A DNA stretch of 29,072 nucleotides, taken from the NCBI GenBank assembly GCA_024278345.1, contig JAJRTK010000332.1, positions 1 through 29,072 of the forward strand, in the 5' to 3' direction. The position numbers and the translations under genes are program-made. Numbering within the stretch: position 1 is the stretch's first letter; each line of letters opens with the position of its first letter. This DNA comes from a bacterium. Its GTDB lineage: Bacteria > CSSED10-310 > JAJRTK01. This document shows positions 2,552-19,851 of the stretch, one piece after another. The notes below the pieces were generated by a model. That model did not search any database, was not told where the DNA came from, and saw only the letters and a program-made list of their open reading frames with translations.

Positions 2552-3937
2552 ATGACCAAGTATTTCCTTCGGCGTTTCCTTTTGCTGATTCCGACGTTTT
2601 TTGGGGCGACTCTTTTGGTATTCGTGATATTGCAGCTTGCTCCTGGAGGTCCCATCGAGCAGGCGATCATGCGGATGAAGATGGCGTCGATGAACCAGGG
2701 GGAAGTTGGTGGCGGTGGCGGTAATGGTTTGGCGGGGCAATCGGCGATTCCTCGGGCGGCCCTGGAGCAGATGAAGAAGTTTTATGGTTTCGACAAGCCG
2801 ATCCCGGTGCGTTACCTGATCTGGCTGGGGCTTTGGCCTCGGGACGTGGACAACCACGTGGTGGAGTTGGGGAAGCCGTTGCGTCTTCCGGTGGGCGAGG
2901 TGGAGTTCGAGGGTGAGGAGATCCGGTTGTGGCGATGGGTGCGGGCGGTGGAGGTGGATGGGGAGGCGTTGCTCCAGGAGAGCGAGGAGAGTGGTGCGGG
3001 GTTTTACGTGGACGATTCGATCCCGATTCTTCCTCGGGCGGCGTCGGTGGGGTCGTGGCGGCCTTTGGAGGGTTGGAGCCTGATCCGGGATTGGCGTGAC
3101 GAGTGGCCGGAGGACGAGGAGAAGCCGCCGGCGGAGCGGGTTCGGAAGGTGGAATTCGCGAAGAAACAGATGTCGGGCATTCTCACGGGAGATTTGGGCG
3201 TTTCGTATGTCTATTCGGAGCCGGTGTGGGATGTGATCCGGCCTCGGTTCAAGATTTCGCTTTTTTTTGGGTGCATTGGTTTCGTGTTGGCGTATTTGGT
3301 CTGTATTCCGCTGGGTATTTTCAAGGCGCTGAAGCATGGGACGCCGTTCGATTTTGTGACGAGCGCGATTGTTTTCATTGGCTATTCGATCCCGGGCTGG
3401 GCGTTGGGGGCGATATTGTTGGTGCTGTTTGGTGGTGGGAGTTTCTGGGATGTGTTTCCTTTGGGCGGGTTCCGGTCGGACAACTGGGAGATGCTGACGA
3501 CGTGGGGGAAGATTCTGGATCAGGCGCACCACGCGGTGCTTCCGCTCATCGCGTGGACGATCCAGGGGTTTGCGGTGTTGACGGTGCTCATGAAGAATTC
3601 GCTGTTGGAGAACTTGAGTGCGGATTACGTGCGGACGGCGTTTGCCAAGGGGTTGACGGAGCGGCGGGTGATCTGGGTTCACGTTTTCCGGAACTCGTTG
3701 ATTCCCATCTGCGTGGGGATTGGTGGGCTCATCGGTGTGTTCCTGGCTGGTTCGTATTTGATCGAGAAGACGTTCAATATTGATGGTTTCGGGATGTTGG
3801 GGTTCCAGTCGGCGTTGAACCGGGACTATCCCATCGTCATGGGTACGCTGGTCATCGGGGTCTTTTTGCGGTTGTTCGGGAACATCATATCGGACATTGC
3901 GCTGGCGATTGTCGATCCCAGGATCCGGTTCAAGTGA
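2552..3937 (+). CDS. yejB: Peptide/microcin-C-type ABC importer permease, YejB-like, with an inserted domain
   Basis: This 461-aa inner-membrane protein is one half of the translocation pore of an Opp/Dpp/Yej-family importer. The N-terminal helix (residues 7-30) followed by QLAPGGPIEQAI is the YejB hallmark. The C-terminal binding-protein-dependent transport domain has the EAA-type coupling loop (AKGLTERRVIWVHVFRNSL) and ends DIALAIVDPRIRFK, closely like YejB ends. E. coli YejB is about 364 aa; the extra length lies at residues ~95-208, between the first helix and the GDLGVSY segment. It is a hydrophilic, acidic, Trp-rich stretch predicted to be extracytoplasmic. A glycine run occurs at ~52-59. 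I chose the ATG at 2552 because it begins the conserved MTKYFLRR and has a purine-rich site just upstream; an in-frame ATG lies at 2531. Codon use is unusually G/T-rich in third positions. The next gene starts 10 bp downstream. Confidence 0.92.
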   Translation: MTKYFLRRFLLLIPTFFGATLLVFVILQLAPGGPIEQAIMRMKMASMNQGEVGGGGGNGLAGQSAIPRAALEQMKKFYGFDKPIPVRYLIWLGLWPRDVDNHVVELGKPLRLPVGEVEFEGEEIRLWRWVRAVEVDGEALLQESEESGAGFYVDDSIPILPRAASVGSWRPLEGWSLIRDWRDEWPEDEEKPPAERVRKVEFAKKQMSGILTGDLGVSYVYSEPVWDVIRPRFKISLFFGCIGFVLAYLVCIPLGIFKALKHGTPFDFVTSAIVFIGYSIPGWALGAILLVLFGGGSFWDVFPLGGFRSDNWEMLTTWGKILDQAHHAVLPLIAWTIQGFAVLTVLMKNSLLENLSADYVRTAFAKGLTERRVIWVHVFRNSLIPICVGIGGLIGVFLAGSYLIEKTFNIDGFGMLGFQSALNRDYPIVMGTLVIGVFLRLFGNIISDIALAIVDPRIRFK

Positions 3938-3947
3938 GGGTGGAGCG

Positions 3948-5015
3948 ATGACCAGAAAGATCGAGAAAAAGGCGCCGGGTTCCCAGTCGATTTTGGCGAA
4001 GCGATTCCGAAAGTTTCGTTCCATCAAACGCGGTTATATTTCATTTATTGTATTGGTGATGGCCTACGGTGCCTCGTTTTTCTTGCCGCTTTTGGTGAGC
4101 AACCGCGCCTTGGTGGTTCGCCACGAGGGAAAAACTTATTTTCCAGCTTTCCACGGCTTCTATTCGGCGTCGGAGTTTGGGGCGGAAGGGACCTCTTCGG
4201 AGCCCAACTACCGGGAGCTCCGGGAGCAGTTCAAGGAAGAGGGCGCAGGCAATTGGGTCATGATGCCGCTCTACCATTACGATCCCCTGGAGGATGTGAC
4301 GGTTGCCGGAAACAAGGCGTTTGAGGCGCCTTCGTGGAAACACTGGCTCGGGACCGATGATCGAGGGAGAGACCTGTTCGCCAGGATGGCTTACGGTTTC
4401 AACGTCTCCTTGTCTTTCGCCCTCCTTTTGACCTTTATCAACTATTTGGTCGGTGGATCAGTCGGCGCGGTCATGGGCTATTTCGGGGGAAGATTCGACC
4501 TCTATGTCCAGCGGCTCATCGAGATCTGGGGCACGATGCCGTTCCTTTACGTGGTGATCATTATTTCGTCCATCATCACGCCTAACTTCCTGCTATTAGT
4601 CTTTATCTTGAACCTCTTTGGGTGGATCGGCATGACTTACTACATGCGGGCCGAGTTCTACCGGGAGAAGGCCAAAGACTATGTGGCGGCGGCCATTACC
4701 ATGGGGGTCTCGACGCCGAAGATCATCTTCAAGCACATTCTGCCCAATGCCCTGACGCCCATCATCGCCTTCTTTCCCTTCAACATGGTGGGCGGGATCA
4801 GTTCGTTGGTCGCTCTGGATTTTCTGGGGTTTGGGCTGCCGCCGCCGACGCCGAGCTGGGGGCAGATGGTGTCGGTGGGACTGATGAACCTCGAAAAGTG
4901 GTGGTTGGTGACAGTACCGCTGGCGGCGCTTTTCATCACCTTGCTCCTCATCGTCTTCATCGGCGAGGCTATCCGGGAAGCCTTTGACCCAAAGGTCTTC
5001 TCTAGATTGAGGTGA
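3948..5015 (+). CDS. yejE: Peptide/microcin-C-type ABC importer permease, YejE-like
   Basis: The 355-aa partner permease. The N-terminal helix at ~29-50 is followed by a loop with SNRALVVRHEGKTYFPAFH, the typical YejE pattern (rPLVVrydGkfYFP). The loop continues to HWLGTDDRGRDLFARMAYG, which precedes the transport domain. The EAA loop is visible as AAITMGVSTPKIIFKHILPNALTP, then SLVALDFLGFGLPPPTPSWGQ. The C-terminus is FIGEAIREAFDPKVFSRLR. Length matches the family (E. coli YejE about 341 aa). The ATG at 3948 is preceded by GAGGGTGGAG overlapping the end of yejB, so the two are translationally close. Third-position base use shifts back to C-rich along this gene, in contrast to yejB. Confidence 0.93.
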   Translation: MTRKIEKKAPGSQSILAKRFRKFRSIKRGYISFIVLVMAYGASFFLPLLVSNRALVVRHEGKTYFPAFHGFYSASEFGAEGTSSEPNYRELREQFKEEGAGNWVMMPLYHYDPLEDVTVAGNKAFEAPSWKHWLGTDDRGRDLFARMAYGFNVSLSFALLLTFINYLVGGSVGAVMGYFGGRFDLYVQRLIEIWGTMPFLYVVIIISSIITPNFLLLVFILNLFGWIGMTYYMRAEFYREKAKDYVAAAITMGVSTPKIIFKHILPNALTPIIAFFPFNMVGGISSLVALDFLGFGLPPPTPSWGQMVSVGLMNLEKWWLVTVPLAALFITLLLIVFIGEAIREAFDPKVFSRLR

Positions 5016-5113: not shown

Positions 5114-6112
5114 ATGGAGAGAGAGAAGCTAGTAGAGGTCCAGGGGCTCCGGACCTACTTCGAAACGGAGGCGGGCACCGCCAAGGCCGTGGATGATGTC
5201 AGTTTCGACGTCTACGCCGGAGAGGTGCTGGGCATCGTCGGCGAGTCCGGCTCTGGAAAATCGGTCACCGCCCTCTCCATTATGAGGCTCATCCCCGATC
5301 CGCCAGGAAAGATCATCAGCGGCAGGATCCTGTTCCAGGGACGCGATCTCACGAAGCTCTCCTATCCAGAACTCTACAAGATCCGAGGCTCGGAAATCGC
5401 CATGGTCTTCTAGGAGCCCATGACCTCGCTCAATCCCGTTTACCGGATCGGGATGCAGGTTGGCGAGGTCATCCGGTTCCACGAAGAGGTGACGAAACAG
5501 GAGATCCACGACCGCTGCGTCGAGATGATGCGGATGGTGGGAATCCCCGACGCCGAGAAACGCTTGCGGGAGTATCCTCACCAGTTCTCCGGCGGGATGA
5601 GGCAGCGGGTAATGATTGCCATGGCTCTTGCCTGCAACCCGGCCCTTCTTATCGCCGACGAGCCGACGACGGCCCTGGACGTGACGATCCAGGCGCAGAT
5701 CCTGGAGTTGATGCTCGATCTCAAGGAGCGCAGAAAAGAGGCGGCCATCGTTCTCATTACCCATGACCTGGCCGTGGTCGCCGAGACCTGTGAGCGGGTG
5801 ATCGTCATGTACGGCGGCAAGATCCAGGAAGTCTCACCGGTGATGGAGCTCTTTGAGACGCCTCTCCACCCCTACACCGAGGGTCTCCTGGGATCGATCC
5901 CCAGGCCGGATCGAGAGCAAAAGGGCAAGCTCATGGCGATTCCCGGCGTTGTCCCAAGCATTCTGGAAATGCCACCGGGCTGCAAGTTTTGCAGCCGTTG
6001 CACCGTGAAGGAGGAGCGGTGCGAGACAGAGGAACCGCCCCTCCGAGAGGTGAGTCCGGGCCATTTCACCCGTTGCCACCTGGTGACCAAGGAAGGGAGG
6101 CAGTGGGCATGA
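5114..6112 (+). pseudogene. oppD: OppD/DppD-type ABC ATPase split by an in-frame TAG at the Q-loop Gln codon
   Basis: Read through one stop, this is a normal-length (332-codon) peptide-importer ATPase. Walker A is VGESGSGKSVT (~residues 40-50). The signature is FSGGMRQRV and Walker B is [14 protein letters not shown]. The family C-terminal domain has [15 protein letters not shown] and a Cys cluster (GCKFCSRC...C...C) like the one reported to hold an Fe-S cluster in some OppD/DppD proteins. Codon 100 (5411-5413) is TAG where the family has the Q-loop glutamine: AMVF-stop-EPMTSLNP. CAG to TAG is a single C-to-T change. The two halves are in the same frame. AGGAG at 5412-5416 overlaps the stop and precedes an ATG at 5420, so the C-terminal half (230 aa) could in principle be made by re-initiation, but it would lack Walker A. 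Everything else is intact, so this is a recent nonsense mutation, a sequencing error, or a suppressed/recoded stop. The downstream gene overlaps by ATGA. Confidence 0.85.
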
Positions 6113-7122
6113 GTGCAGGGATTACTCCGGGAGCCCTGGTGGATGTTCGGGATCTCCGCGTCTACTTCCCTATTTTTGGCGGTCTCTTCCAGCGTAAGGT
6201 CGGGGTCGTCAAAGCAGTGGATGGCGTGTCGATTTCCCTGTTCAAGGGGGAGACCGTGGGTCTGGTGGGGGAATCCGGCTGCGGCAAGACCACGGTGGGC
6301 CGTGCCATCATCAATGTCCTGCGTCACATGGCCCACGACGTGGAGCTGTCGGGGAGCATCTTCTACAATTTCACTCCGCCGCCGGTGGATATCCTGCCGT
6401 TGCACCACCGCTCCATGGGCTCCTACCGGGCGAAGGTTCAGATGATCTTCCAGGATCCCTACTCTTCTTTGAATCCCAGGATGACCGTGCAGCAGATCCT
6501 GGCGGAACCCCTTCAGCTCCATACCGACAAGAAGGGAACAGAGCTCAGGGATTATGTCGCTTGGCTCATGAAGCGGGTGGGATTGCTTCCCGACCAGATT
6601 TCCCGTTTCCCCCACGAGTTTTCCGGCGGGCAGCGCCAGAGGATCGGCATTGCGCGTTCCCTGGCCACCAACCCGGAGCTCATCATTTGCGACGAACCGG
6701 TGTCGGCCCTGGACGTCTCCATCCAGGCGCAGGTGATCAACCTCATGGGGGAACTCCAGGAGGAGTTCGGGCTCACCTACTTGTTCATTGCCCACGATCT
6801 CAGCGTGGTGGAGCATATCAGCGACAAGATTGCCGTGATGTACTTGGGGAACATCGTGGAGTTCGGCACGAGCGAGCAGGTCTATTTCGATCCGAAGCAT
6901 CCGTACAGCAAGGCGCTTCTTTCGGCGGTGCCCGTGGCAAACCCAAGGAGAGAGCGGGCTCGGCGAATCGTCCTGAAAGGGGACGTGCCTACCCCCATTA
7001 ACAAGCCCTCGGGCTGTGGTTTCCGGACGCGATGTCCCATTGCCAAGCCCGACTGCGCCAAGGATGTTCCGCCGCTTCGCAATGTGGGAGAGGAACATCT
7101 GGTGGCTTGCCCTTACGCATAG
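6109..7122 (+). CDS. oppF: OppF/DppF-type peptide ABC importer ATPase
   Basis: A 337-aa cytoplasmic ATPase, the second nucleotide-binding subunit of the importer. Walker A is [14 protein letters not shown], the Q-loop is intact ([18 protein letters not shown]), the signature is [15 protein letters not shown] and Walker B is [14 protein letters not shown]. The switch His region is [13 protein letters not shown]. The C-terminal oligopeptide-transporter domain follows ([12 protein letters not shown], then [15 protein letters not shown]). An insertion between Walker A and the Q-loop ([19 protein letters not shown]) is slightly longer than usual. The ATG at 6109 overlaps the upstream TGA (ATGA), with GGAAGGGAGG at 6091-6100 as ribosome-binding site. 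Stop is TAG. In E. coli the Yej system uses one fused ATPase (YejF); here the two halves are separate genes. Confidence 0.93.
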
Positions 7123-14521: not shown

Positions 14522-14674
14522 GGTTTTGTTCGCCTTTGCTTCGCAGGCTCGTCAAGGGAAGAGTGCCGCGCCGTTGTCGCCTAAAAGGTCGCGAAGGGAG
14601 AATGAGTGTAAGTAATGGTATGACAATTCCTGAGGAAAGCGGCAAGTCGTGGTTCGTTGACGAAAGGATCTCTC

Positions 14675-16498
14675 ATGAAGTTTGTTGGCCGGGAAGAGAT
14701 CTTGGAAGGTGTGTTGAATGGCTTTCGACATGCCGTCTGGATCATGGGAATGCAGGGATCGGGAAAGACCGCGGTGCTCAAGGAACTTTTGGCCTTGACG
14801 CAAGATCCTGACGAAGGCTGCCTGACGCCTTTTTTCCTTAGTCTGGCCGGTGTGCGGGATTTCGCCTCGCTGGACAAAAAAATGGGACACGCCGTCCGGG
14901 ATTTCCAAGAGGTTGCCTCCGCCCACGCTCTTTTGCTCCCGAATCCCGGCGCCTGGTCGTCCAGCTTGCAGGTGATCCGCGGTCTCCAGAAGGCGGCCCG
15001 CCAAGTCGGTCGGACCCTTCTCTTTCTTCTGGACGACGCCGATGCCCTCCTGAGCTGGAAAGAAGCCGGTGGTGTTCGGTTGAGGCGGATGGTTCGGATC
15101 CTTGCGTCGGGAGAGTCTATCAGGACGGCGCTGGCCGGATCTCCAGCGCTATCTCGCATGGCCTCTCTTCCGGGGGCGACGTCACCTCTTTTGAGTCACT
15201 TCGTTCCTCCTCACTACGTTGGATCACTGACCCTGGGTCAACTCGAAGATGCTCTGGCACCATGCTTTGAGCCTCCATTGATCCAGGCGATTTTTGGGGC
15301 GACTGGCGGTTATCCCTTTCTGGTGCAGGCTCTTGTCTCCAACTGCCGAGAGGCTGGCACTTTTGAACAGGGGCTCAAGCTGGTCCGATGCGACCTGGGG
15401 CTTAGGGACCGTTTCTTCGGTGCTCTCGATGCGCTTCATTCCGCGGAGAGGCGAACCTTGGTCCGCCTGGCATCGGGAAGCGGAGTCGCTCTGGGAGTGA
15501 ACTCGTTTCCTCGGCTCTTCCGATTGGGCCTTCTTCGGCGCGTGGATGGAAAGACCCTCATTGCCGGGAGCCTCCCCGCCTATTGGCTGGCTGGTTCCGA
15601 TTCCTCTTGTTCCGGCATTGCGGCAAGTCTGGTGAGGCTCGGGCCTTTTACGCTCCTGGAAAGAATCGGGAGCGGGGGAGTCAGCGAGGTCTATTCGGCA
15701 TGGGATCGCCGGGTGGGACGGAAAGTGGCTCTCAAGCTCCTTCGATATGATCGGACCCAGAGTTTCGGGAAACGCTTCTTGAGAGAGGCGAAGATGACCA
15801 TGGCTTTGGAGCACCCGGGCATCGTGAAGATCCTTGATGCTGGGGAGATTGGCGGGCGTCTCTATTTGAGTCTGGAGCTCTGTGACGGCCCTTCTCTCAA
15901 GGAGCGCCTTGCCACGGGGCCTTTGCCCGCTCCGGAAGCCTTGAGGTGCGGCCTCGGGATAGCCCGTGCGTTGGATTACGCCCACGGTCGGGGCGTCGTC
16001 CACAGAGATGTCAAACCCTCCAACATCATGCTTCCCGGTGGCGGTGGGTCGAAGCTCGTTGATTTCGGCTTGGCAAAGAAGCTAGCCTCGCTCATGACAT
16101 CGAGTCTATCGGCTTCCGCCACTCGCTCGGGCCTCTTGCTGGGAACACTGATCTACATGTCACCAGAGCAGTTACGGGGCCTTCGCGTCGATACGAGGAC
16201 CGACCAGTTTTCCCTGGGCATTGTTCTCTACGAGATGCTGACAGGCAGTCATCCTTTTCAAGAGCCTCGGCCCTACGAAACGGCCCGACGAATCATTTCC
16301 GGCTCTCCCCGACCGCTCCGGGGCGTCTTGGGCTGGATTCCCTTCCGATTCCAGCTCCTGCTTGACCGATTGCTGCAGAAAACCCCGGCCGAACGCTTTT
16401 CTGGACTTGCCGAAGTCGCGGCACAGCTCGATAGCTTGCTCGAAGAGATGGAGACTGCCCCAAGGAGTTTCCAGGCTTCCTCCACGTCGCCGGTCTAG
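14675..16498 (+). CDS. N-terminal STAND-like NTPase fused to a C-terminal Ser/Thr protein kinase
   Basis: A 607-aa protein with an unusual domain order. Residues ~1-310 are a P-loop NTPase: Walker A GMQGSGKT at 25-32, Walker B TLLFLLDDAD at ~114-123 and a GGYPFLVQAL motif at 211-220 typical of STAND/AAA ATPases. Residues ~322-590 are a complete Hanks-type kinase: glycine loop IGSGGVSEVY, Lys354 in VALK, HRDVKPSN with HRD at 443-445, DFG at 463-465 and SPEQ at 496-499. All catalytic residues are present, so it should be active. No membrane segment was seen. ATG 14675 is chosen for AAAGGA six bases upstream; a TTG lies at 14657. The gene is divergent from the sigma-54 activator and ends in TAG inside the CTAG shared with the convergent kinase gene. 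Confidence 0.92.
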   Translation: MKFVGREEILEGVLNGFRHAVWIMGMQGSGKTAVLKELLALTQDPDEGCLTPFFLSLAGVRDFASLDKKMGHAVRDFQEVASAHALLLPNPGAWSSSLQVIRGLQKAARQVGRTLLFLLDDADALLSWKEAGGVRLRRMVRILASGESIRTALAGSPALSRMASLPGATSPLLSHFVPPHYVGSLTLGQLEDALAPCFEPPLIQAIFGATGGYPFLVQALVSNCREAGTFEQGLKLVRCDLGLRDRFFGALDALHSAERRTLVRLASGSGVALGVNSFPRLFRLGLLRRVDGKTLIAGSLPAYWLAGSDSSCSGIAASLVRLGPFTLLERIGSGGVSEVYSAWDRRVGRKVALKLLRYDRTQSFGKRFLREAKMTMALEHPGIVKILDAGEIGGRLYLSLELCDGPSLKERLATGPLPAPEALRCGLGIARALDYAHGRGVVHRDVKPSNIMLPGGGGSKLVDFGLAKKLASLMTSSLSASATRSGLLLGTLIYMSPEQLRGLRVDTRTDQFSLGIVLYEMLTGSHPFQEPRPYETARRIISGSPRPLRGVLGWIPFRFQLLLDRLLQKTPAERFSGLAEVAAQLDSLLEEMETAPRSFQASSTSPV

Positions 16499-19400
16499 CT
16501 GTCTGGCGCAATCCCCAACCGCCGAAGCTTGCCGGCCATCAGAAGACTCTTGAAAAGTGAGACCGCTTCGGCAATCAGCGGTTTGGCCAAATCTCTCTTG
16601 CCCTGGCTCTCGAAATAGCGTCCGTAAGCCAGAAGGTTTTCCGCCAGAAGATTGCGCTCCCCGGTCTGGCGAAGGAGATCGATGGCATGTTCGAAATGTG
16701 CTTCCGGGGGGGCATCCGCTTCCCGCCGGCGGGGCGTCTTGGCAGCGACCCGGGCCATGAGGCCCAGAGCCTCGCCAAGGGTCGGCTTGTGTCCGGCTTG
16801 AGAGGCCAGGTCATGGGCCATCCGAGCGTGGCGTTGGGCCCTTGAAAAGCGTTGCTTCCGAAGAGCCACTTCCCCGAGCCCGAGCTCGGCTCCCGCGATG
16901 TCTCGCCGCAGCTCCAGCGGCTGGGCGATGTCGAGAGACTCGCCGAAAGCTTCTTCCGCGGAGTCATAGTTTTTGAGCTCAAGAAAGAGGTTTCCCATGT
17001 TTCCCAGAATGTTGCACTCCAGCTCTCTCACTCGCTCATTCCTGGCCAGTGCCAGGCCACGTCGAAACGTCGATAATGCCTCCTGGTTGCGTCCCAGGAG
17101 GTTATAATTGATGGCGATGTTCGAAAGGTGGACAGCCATCCCCGCCAAATCGCTGATCTCTTCGGCGATGCCAGCCGCCCGTTCGTAGTGTTCGATGGCC
17201 TTCTCGAAGTGCCCCGAAGATCCCCAGGCGATTCCAAGGCTGTTTTCCGCTCCTGCGCGAACCGCCGGTTCCTCGCTCATCTTCGCGGCTTCCCAGGCCA
17301 GATTGGCGTGGTGCATCGTTTCGTCGGGATTTCCCCGCAAGTAGTGCAAGTAGCTCAGTTGCGAGTGGATCTTGTACAAAAACCGCGATTGGTCGTCCCG
17401 CTTGGACAGAGTGAAAGCCGTTTCAAGATCGACTTGAGCTTCATCGAGTTGTCCGATCCTGCAATGGAGAGTCCCGCGCCGGAGATGGGCGATGAGCGTC
17501 CAGGGTGTCTCTTCTTCCAACTCCCCCGCCACGAAGAGAGCTGCCTTGCACTGATCGAGAGCCTCGGCGTAGGCCCCTAGCTTTTCGGCCTCCTCCGCCG
17601 CCTTGAGATGCCAACGTACGGCGTCCTTTGCATTCCCGCCCATCCAGTGGTGGTAGGCGATACCCGCCGCCCCGCGATCCGCTTCTCTCCGAGTCGACTC
17701 CAAAAAAGCGGCTACGCGGCGGTGGAGAATCTTGCGACGGGGCGCCGGGAGGGTTTCATGGAGCACTTCGCGGATTTTCGAGTGGTGGAAGCGATAGGAC
17801 TCTTCGTTCTGGATCACTTCAGAGAGAATCTTGGCCTTGAGCAGTTCATCGAGGATATCCAGCAGCCGTTCCTCCTCTTCCCCCAAGATCCCTAGAAGTG
17901 CCTCGAAACTAAGCTCATCCCCAATGACCGAAGCCTTTCTCAGAACCTCTTGGGCACCTTTGGAGAGATTCTCAACGCGCCGGAGCACCAATTCCCGAAT
18001 CGTGTTGGGCAACGGTATTTTGCGATAGGTGCTCATGGTGGGATTCGTCGGCGCGGATGCCGATAGCTCCAGTTCCCATTGACCGTCAGGGCGCCGCTTC
18101 AACAGGCCGACTTCAAGGAGCGATTTCAGGATCTCCTGGACAAAGAAGGGATTGCCCTCCGTCTCCTCGTGAAGCCTCGTGGCGAAAAGGAGCGGAGCCT
18201 CCGCCATCCCCAACATCGACTGGACCATTTTGGCGACTTCTTCCACCTCCAAGCGCTGCAGGAGAATCTTGTGGAATCGCCCCGTTTTTTGCAACGATCC
18301 CATCATGCGCTGGAGGGGATGGCCCCCGTGAAGATCATCATCCCGGTAGGTGAAAACCACCATGAAACGCGCCGCGGGCTGCTGAGTCAAGAAGGACTGC
18401 ACCAAATGGGTCAGGCACTGGAAAGAAAGCCGATCCGCCCACTGGAAGTCGTCCAAGAAGAGAATCACGGGGTTCAACTCCCCCATGGAGCGGAGTGTCA
18501 ATCCAATATAGTCAAACTGCCGGAGCTTCTCCTGCTCCGGATCGAGAGGATAGGGCTCCGGCTGTTTCCGCACCGATGGCAAGAGGCCAAGTCGTGGGGA
18601 AATGCGGCGAAGGACGCCGCCCCGCTTCCCGATAACCTGCTCCACAAAGTCAGGCCCAAGGCGACGAGCCTCGGTGGCAATGGTCTGCAGTGGCCCGTGG
18701 AATGCCTCGAAGGGGAAATGAGCGTCTTCCGTCGAGCAGCCCCGGAGGATGAAGACCTTTTGGCGAGCCACCTCTTCCAGGAACTCTTCCACAAGCCGCG
18801 TCTTGCCCGCGCCTGATTCTCCACCGATAGCCAGGACGGAGCCCCGTCCAACCAACAGCGTTTCGAAGTGGCGCCGCAAAATCCCCAGCTCTTGCATTCG
18901 GCCAGCCAGCTCCGGATCGTAAAGGAAGTCGTTGAGCTGCGGCGCGTCTCTGGGCAAGGGGACTTCTGCTTCTTCTTCGCCCCGGCTTTCCCCTTCCGGG
19001 CAGTTTGCAAGAGCCCGTTCGATGTCCTCGGCCCGCTGATACCGATTCGCCGGATCTTTTTCCAGACACCGCAGAATCAAGGTCTCCAACTCCGGGGAAA
19101 TCCCCGAAACCACTTCGCTCGGCCGGGGCGGCGGCTTGTGAAGTTGGCTCCAGAGAATCTGCATGGGTTGTTGGCCGGAAAAAGGAGGCTGTCCAGCCAA
19201 AAGCTCGTAAAGAAGGATACCAAAGGCGTAGAGATCAGCTCGCTGATCCGTTTTTCGGCCTAGAACCTGTTCTGGCGCCATGTAGGCCGCCGTCCCCACA
19301 ATGGCCCCCTCCTGCGTCAAGGTGGCCGTCGCCATCTCCGCCTGCACAAGCCCAAAATCCATGAGCTTCGGTTGCCCATTCCTGTTGACAAGGACGTTGG

Positions 19401-19851
19401 ACGGCTTCAGGTCACGATGCACAATCCCGCAGCGATGGACATAGGCCAGCGCCGTGCAGAGCTTTCTCAGTTGCCTCACGACGCGGCCGCGGCGCTCGAG
19501 CTCGCCCGGATCGTCAGGCAGGGGAGAACCCGCAGCGTCCCGGACATTCGGGCCTTCCACATATTCCATGACGAAGAAGGGCGCGGAACTATCCGTGCCA
19601 TAATCAAAAACACGGACGAGCCCCGGATGCTCTAAACGAGCCATCACCCGAAACTCCCGCTGGAGCCGCCGCCGGCTCGATCCACCGGTGCCCAGAAGCG
19701 TCTTGACCGCGACCTTGCTCTCACTGGCGGGGTCTTCGGCAAGATAGACGATGCCTGTTCCGCCTCGCCCAAGAATCCGGATCACGTCGTAGCGGCCAAT
19801 GCGTGTTGGAACATGCACTTGATGATTCCTGCTTGTGCTGGGTGGCCTCAT
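16495..19851 (-). CDS. Ser/Thr kinase - AAA ATPase - TPR signalling protein (PknK-like)
   Basis: An 1118-aa cytoplasmic protein. The kinase domain is at ~21-282 (GRGGTGIVYLA, Lys50, HRDLKPSN with HRD at 145-147, DFG at 165-167, MAPEQ). The AAA/STAND ATPase follows, with Walker A GGESGAGKT at 343-351 and Walker B PVILFLDDFQWAD at ~461-473. After a helical region, several TPR repeats run through roughly residues 730-1050 (for example SLGIAWGSSGHFEKAIEHYERA and NLLGRNQEALSTF). This architecture is that of PknK-type and eukaryote-like kinases that bind partners through TPRs. The start at 19851 has CCGGAG ten bases upstream, within the tail of the decayed sialidase gene; stop is the shared CTAG. 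All kinase and P-loop residues look intact. Confidence 0.94.
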   Translation of the reverse strand: MRPPSTSRNHQVHVPTRIGRYDVIRILGRGGTGIVYLAEDPASESKVAVKTLLGTGGSSRRRLQREFRVMARLEHPGLVRVFDYGTDSSAPFFVMEYVEGPNVRDAAGSPLPDDPGELERRGRVVRQLRKLCTALAYVHRCGIVHRDLKPSNVLVNRNGQPKLMDFGLVQAEMATATLTQEGAIVGTAAYMAPEQVLGRKTDQRADLYAFGILLYELLAGQPPFSGQQPMQILWSQLHKPPPRPSEVVSGISPELETLILRCLEKDPANRYQRAEDIERALANCPEGESRGEEEAEVPLPRDAPQLNDFLYDPELAGRMQELGILRRHFETLLVGRGSVLAIGGESGAGKTRLVEEFLEEVARQKVFILRGCSTEDAHFPFEAFHGPLQTIATEARRLGPDFVEQVIGKRGGVLRRISPRLGLLPSVRKQPEPYPLDPEQEKLRQFDYIGLTLRSMGELNPVILFLDDFQWADRLSFQCLTHLVQSFLTQQPAARFMVVFTYRDDDLHGGHPLQRMMGSLQKTGRFHKILLQRLEVEEVAKMVQSMLGMAEAPLLFATRLHEETEGNPFFVQEILKSLLEVGLLKRRPDGQWELELSASAPTNPTMSTYRKIPLPNTIRELVLRRVENLSKGAQEVLRKASVIGDELSFEALLGILGEEEERLLDILDELLKAKILSEVIQNEESYRFHHSKIREVLHETLPAPRRKILHRRVAAFLESTRREADRGAAGIAYHHWMGGNAKDAVRWHLKAAEEAEKLGAYAEALDQCKAALFVAGELEEETPWTLIAHLRRGTLHCRIGQLDEAQVDLETAFTLSKRDDQSRFLYKIHSQLSYLHYLRGNPDETMHHANLAWEAAKMSEEPAVRAGAENSLGIAWGSSGHFEKAIEHYERAAGIAEEISDLAGMAVHLSNIAINYNLLGRNQEALSTFRRGLALARNERVRELECNILGNMGNLFLELKNYDSAEEAFGESLDIAQPLELRRDIAGAELGLGEVALRKQRFSRAQRHARMAHDLASQAGHKPTLGEALGLMARVAAKTPRRREADAPPEAHFEHAIDLLRQTGERNLLAENLLAYGRYFESQGKRDLAKPLIAEAVSLFKSLLMAGKLRRLGIAPDS

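Follow-up and report, generated by a model that had tools for sequence, protein, structure and literature searches.

An in-frame TAG at the Q-loop glutamine codon of an otherwise conserved OppD-type ATPase gene in a draft bacterial genome

An Opp-Type Operon With One Internal Stop

The window analyzed here, the whole of a 29,072-nucleotide stretch, lies on contig 262 (C262) of a 6.06 Mb, 550-contig draft genome (87.9% complete, 2.1% contaminated). On its forward strand it carries an OppB-type permease gene with a long insert (positions 2552 to 3937, counted from the first ATG at 2552; the listed open reading frame begins at a GTG at 2531), an OppC-type permease gene (3948 to 5015), the frame of an OppD-type ATPase (5114 to 6112) and an OppF-type ATPase gene (6109 to 7122) that starts with an ATG overlapping the terminator of OppD (ATGA). 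The same B-C-D-F order is found in two relatives (L045 and L049), and OppB is 47-66% identical to its syntenic relatives. Among known systems the permeases match the YejABEF/Opp4-type subfamily best (NCBIfam YejB/Opp4B for OppB, YejE/Opp4C for OppC); however, both score under the curated cut-offs, and the ATPases in the window are encoded by separate genes, whereas YejABEF has one fused YejF.

The OppD frame runs from the ATG at 5114 to the TGA ending at 6112 and contains a single internal stop, a TAG at codon 100 (5411 to 5413, + strand). The codons at 5411 to 5419 read TAG-GAG-CCC and are followed by an ATG at 5420. When the stop is read as glutamine the frame encodes 332 residues, which match PF00005 (ABC_tran; 5.4e-31, residues 27-186) and PF08352 (oligo_HPY; 2e-19), and each half of the frame also matches ABC_tran separately, covering positions 2-65 and 75-137 of the 137-position profile, each range without a break. 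The frame has the full domain order of the OppD/DppD ATPases of peptide ABC importers (PF00005 plus PF08352; NF008246, NF007010; structures 8j5q and 8z1v), with which it shares Walker A, signature, Walker B, H-loop, the C-terminal oligo_HPY tail typical of this ATPase type and the operon order. The NCBIfam DppD/OppD models fit it best, yet it scores below their curated cut-offs, and it differs from these ATPases in that TAG occupies the codon for the Q-loop glutamine, and this motif is complete only when glutamine is inserted at the stop.

Aligned to solved OppD/DppD proteins, for instance mycobacterial OppD Rv1281c (8j5q), residue 100 falls on their Q-loop glutamine. The position is glutamine in all 111 intact homologs of at least 45% identity (CAG in 85, CAA in 26), and none of them has a stop there, which bears out the proposal of an earlier note on this DNA that the TAG replaces the Q-loop glutamine. 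The closest OppD proteins are 66-70% identical and come from draft genomes labeled Ignavibacteriae, Kapaibacterium, Chlorobiota and others; the relatives compared throughout belong to the same phylum or are more distant, with OppD identities of at most about 70%. The predicted truncated product (5114 to 5413) has 99 residues, includes Walker A (GESGSGKS) and stops just ahead of the Q-loop glutamine. A putative re-initiation product from the ATG at 5420 (5420 to 6112, 230 residues) would include the signature (FSGGMRQR), Walker B (LLIADEP), the H-loop (THDL) and the oligo_HPY region.

State of the Operon and of the Interrupted Gene

We identified 74 near-invariant columns in OppD across 104 homologs, and the gene departs from them at one, the stop itself. 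No further decay of the frame or of invariant residues was seen at the other 73, so the claim of a single TAG in an otherwise intact ATPase gene holds. The absence of change in those 73 codons bounds the unconstrained divergence of OppD below roughly 1.8% per site, and implies that the loss of OppD is recent, or that the base is erroneous, or that a product is still made. Third-position G+C differs little between the parts of OppD that precede and follow the stop (0.78 and 0.80), and the rest of the operon is similar. Near-invariant columns hold 21 of the 109 nonsense routes of OppD; that the stop fell on one of them is, taken alone, unremarkable.

The flanking genes had also been described as intact. 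This is correct for OppB, OppC and OppF, whose frames are all open and which show two departures (OppB) or none (OppC; OppF, at 76 columns) at near-invariant columns. It does not extend to the binding protein: unlike three close relatives (L045, L047 and L049), in which an SBP_bac_5 gene lies directly upstream of OppB, and unlike OppD/DppD systems, the operon has no adjacent gene of this kind. The corresponding site (1444 to 2550) is about 1.1 kb without a recognizable gene and with short tandem repeats, and neither a binding-protein gene in the window nor a remnant of one in this region was found. The rest of the genome yielded matches to the relatives' binding proteins of only 24-28% identity, the best at 27%. 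The importer's binding protein may already have been lost, or may be encoded elsewhere or in the 12% of the genome that is unassembled. Direct repeats lie just upstream of OppB within 2134 to 2385, one of 43 nt occurring twice with 45-nt spacing and one of 38 nt occurring twice. The genome has four further Opp-type operons, each with an uninterrupted OppD.

In-Frame Stops Elsewhere in the Genome

The genome encodes about 100 Ser/Thr protein kinases, many of them in frames of more than 1000 residues, and two such genes lie in the window (14657 to 16498, + strand; 16495 to 19851, − strand). Four of the roughly 100 Pkinase genes carry a single in-frame stop, and all four stops fall within columns 167-173 of the 250-column alignment, which correspond to the P+1 loop, GTxxYM(S/A)PEQ. 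Two are TAG (C179:798, L273, in the context YM*PEQ; C57:17752, L274:2253, in YMSPE*) and two are TAA (C306:8289, L165, in YM*PEQ; C414, L275, − strand, in HP*CLAPEQ). If stops were placed at random, with weights given by nonsense routes, such a cluster would have a chance of about 1e-4, a post hoc estimate for one family. Given this cluster, nonsense in the genome may not be random. We considered and rejected an assembly artifact driven by short repeats, as the stops are surrounded by exact intragenomic repeats of only about 14-22 bases, too short for most assembly k-mers, and there is no excess of missense at the motif among 51 kinases (proline in 48 of 48, glutamate in 47 of 48). Random nonsense does not account for the clustering. 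Because random mutation does not predict it, the clustering is the one result here that would have broader significance, should reads bear out the stops.

A coding-potential census of in-frame stops, covering about a quarter of the genome, returned mostly adjacent genes sharing a frame. Twenty candidates from it were scanned against Pfam, and a domain spanned the stop in three only: a Pkinase gene (TAA), a DUF3179 gene (TGA) and a frame resembling an APH-type phosphotransferase (TAG at 7608-7606 of L195, C5, − strand). Besides OppD and three kinases, a BLAST census of paralogs over 1.44 Mb gave mainly antisense shadow frames. A TAG match at C103:10086-10766 was rejected, its alignment overrunning the natural terminator and PF00005 being present there without a stop.

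Alternative Readings of the Stop

The stop-decoding machinery of the genome is standard, which bears on whether UAG is reassigned, or efficiently suppressed with glutamine or pyrrolysine, in this organism. The RF1 gene prfA is above cut-off and free of stops; the genome search for PylS gave only weak matches far under the cut-off; and neither the 48 tRNA genes nor a direct pattern search of the 88% complete genome included a tRNA with a CUA anticodon. The note's observation that TAG also ends other genes in the window was verified at 7122, and in a 1.12 Mb sample of the genome TAG terminates 123 of 476 long open reading frames, about a quarter. The one suggestive point is that a glutamine column holds TAG both in OppD and in one of the kinases. 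However, the stops inside single domains (TAG in OppD and in the APH-like gene, TAG or TAA in the kinases) are few, include TAA, and sit at Ser/Ala columns as well as glutamine, and from codon usage alone about half of random nonsense routes lead to TAG. Genome-wide recoding is thus largely refuted by the tRNA, RF1, PylS and in-frame stop evidence, and the option of a suppressor tRNA is strongly disfavored. Slightly less remote, though still very improbable, is a genuinely split ATPase, in which termination followed by re-initiation at the ATG at 5420 would give fragments of 99 and 230 residues that assemble into a working nucleotide-binding domain. An AGGAG resembling a Shine-Dalgarno sequence (5412 to 5416) and an ATG do come straight after the stop, and the second fragment is a clean open reading frame. 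However, this apparent restart is simply the ordinary codons of the conserved QEPM motif: AGGAGnnnATG is found at the same place in 49 of the 111 intact homologs, and the option that it had been taken to favor thereby loses its main support. Moreover, the AGGAG is only three bases from the ATG, the split removes the Q-loop glutamine itself, and no homolog split at this point was seen. The 230-residue fragment could be produced, judging from the sequence, and would lack both Walker A and the Q-loop glutamine.

Two further readings concern readthrough and sequence error. Under programmed or tolerated readthrough, low-level reading of UAG, for example by tRNA-Gln(CUG), would supply a little full-length OppD, the stop acting as a down-regulator. 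In its favor both halves of OppD are conserved, tRNA-Gln(CUG) and tRNA-Gln(UUG) are both present, the kinase stops cluster in one motif in a way that random nonsense leaves unexplained, and bacteria are reported to carry in-frame stops that are frequent, short-lived and accompanied by dN/dS below 1 (PMC7918605). Against it, the stop is shared by none of the homologs, the RNA downstream of the stop does not fold clearly better than shuffled sequences (z −1.84), and neither a specific recoding element nor a specific tRNA came to light; we consider this reading improbable. A broader form of the idea, that single in-frame UAG or UAA codons in functional motifs of otherwise intact genes (the OppD Q-loop and the P+1 loops of the four kinases) are kept as low-level readthrough switches rather than being random nulls, is more doubtful still. 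A less improbable alternative, although an unlikely one, is a consensus or assembly error, such that the organism has a sense codon and the contig of this metagenome-assembled genome is wrong at one base, or that strains have been collapsed. The incomplete, slightly contaminated state of the 550-contig draft and the otherwise perfect OppD are consistent with this, as is another ABC ATPase, at C49:25767-26158, that is spread over two overlapping frames and appears to be either a frameshifted gene or itself an assembly error. However, isolated substitution errors are rare in short-read consensus sequences, and an error driven by repeats, which should produce missense at the same motifs too, is not favored by the conserved kinase prolines and glutamates or by the short length of the repeats.

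Recent Loss of One of Five Importers as the Favored Reading

The earlier note left four options unranked: a recent null mutation, an assembly error, a suppressor tRNA and a split ATPase. With the last two disfavored and assembly error unlikely, we regard a recent null mutation or strain polymorphism in the OppD of one of five Opp-type importers as the best reading, with a probability of roughly 0.68. A single C-to-T transition in the first position of the codon for the Q-loop glutamine would have produced the lesion, or the stop would represent a segregating null allele; we infer the direction of the mutation, the loss of function and its tolerance through redundancy. RF1 would end translation after residue 99, and since the resulting fragment would keep Walker A while lacking the Q-loop, signature, Walker B and H-loop, the importer would be inactive or nearly so. 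Traces of product might still arise through rare near-cognate reading of UAG or through re-initiation at the ATG at 5420. Expression of OppF would probably be reduced as well, because its start at 6109 overlaps the OppD terminator. The cell could tolerate the loss because it retains four further, intact Opp operons and because the affected one is without an adjacent binding-protein gene.

Short-lived in-frame stops, including alternation of TAG with CAG, are common in bacteria (Belinky et al., PMC7918605). The OppD gene resembles those cases in having a single in-frame TAG in a gene that is otherwise conserved, and the example given there alternates between TAG and CAG; it differs in being a single genome, not a set of related strains that might show polymorphism or reversal. 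Other single-stop interruptions within one domain do occur in this genome, in the kinases (TAG and TAA) and the APH-like gene (TAG). A recent null mutation would mean that an uncultured lineage is losing one of its several importers. The locus also serves as a warning that the pairing of a catalytic-residue stop with an apparent Shine-Dalgarno sequence can arise trivially from the codons of a motif. As to how the transition might have occurred, the ancestral sequence around the codon would have been CCAGG, a Dcm-type context, but the sample shows no depletion of CCWGG and so lends no support to Dcm-type deamination.

Other Observations

A tRNA-like gene at 2872-2944 of L162 (C257, − strand) has an apparent six-base anticodon loop, TTTGTC, and could not be assigned by ARAGORN. 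The TGA in the DUF3179 gene (1775-1773 of L228, C343, − strand) lies at an expected cysteine (TW*PLAST). It is followed by a hairpin with a CGUGU loop, the fold of which is no better than that of shuffles. As selB and tRNA-Sec are present in the genome and DUF3179 figures among the listed selenoprotein families (PMC9312934), this TGA probably encodes selenocysteine.
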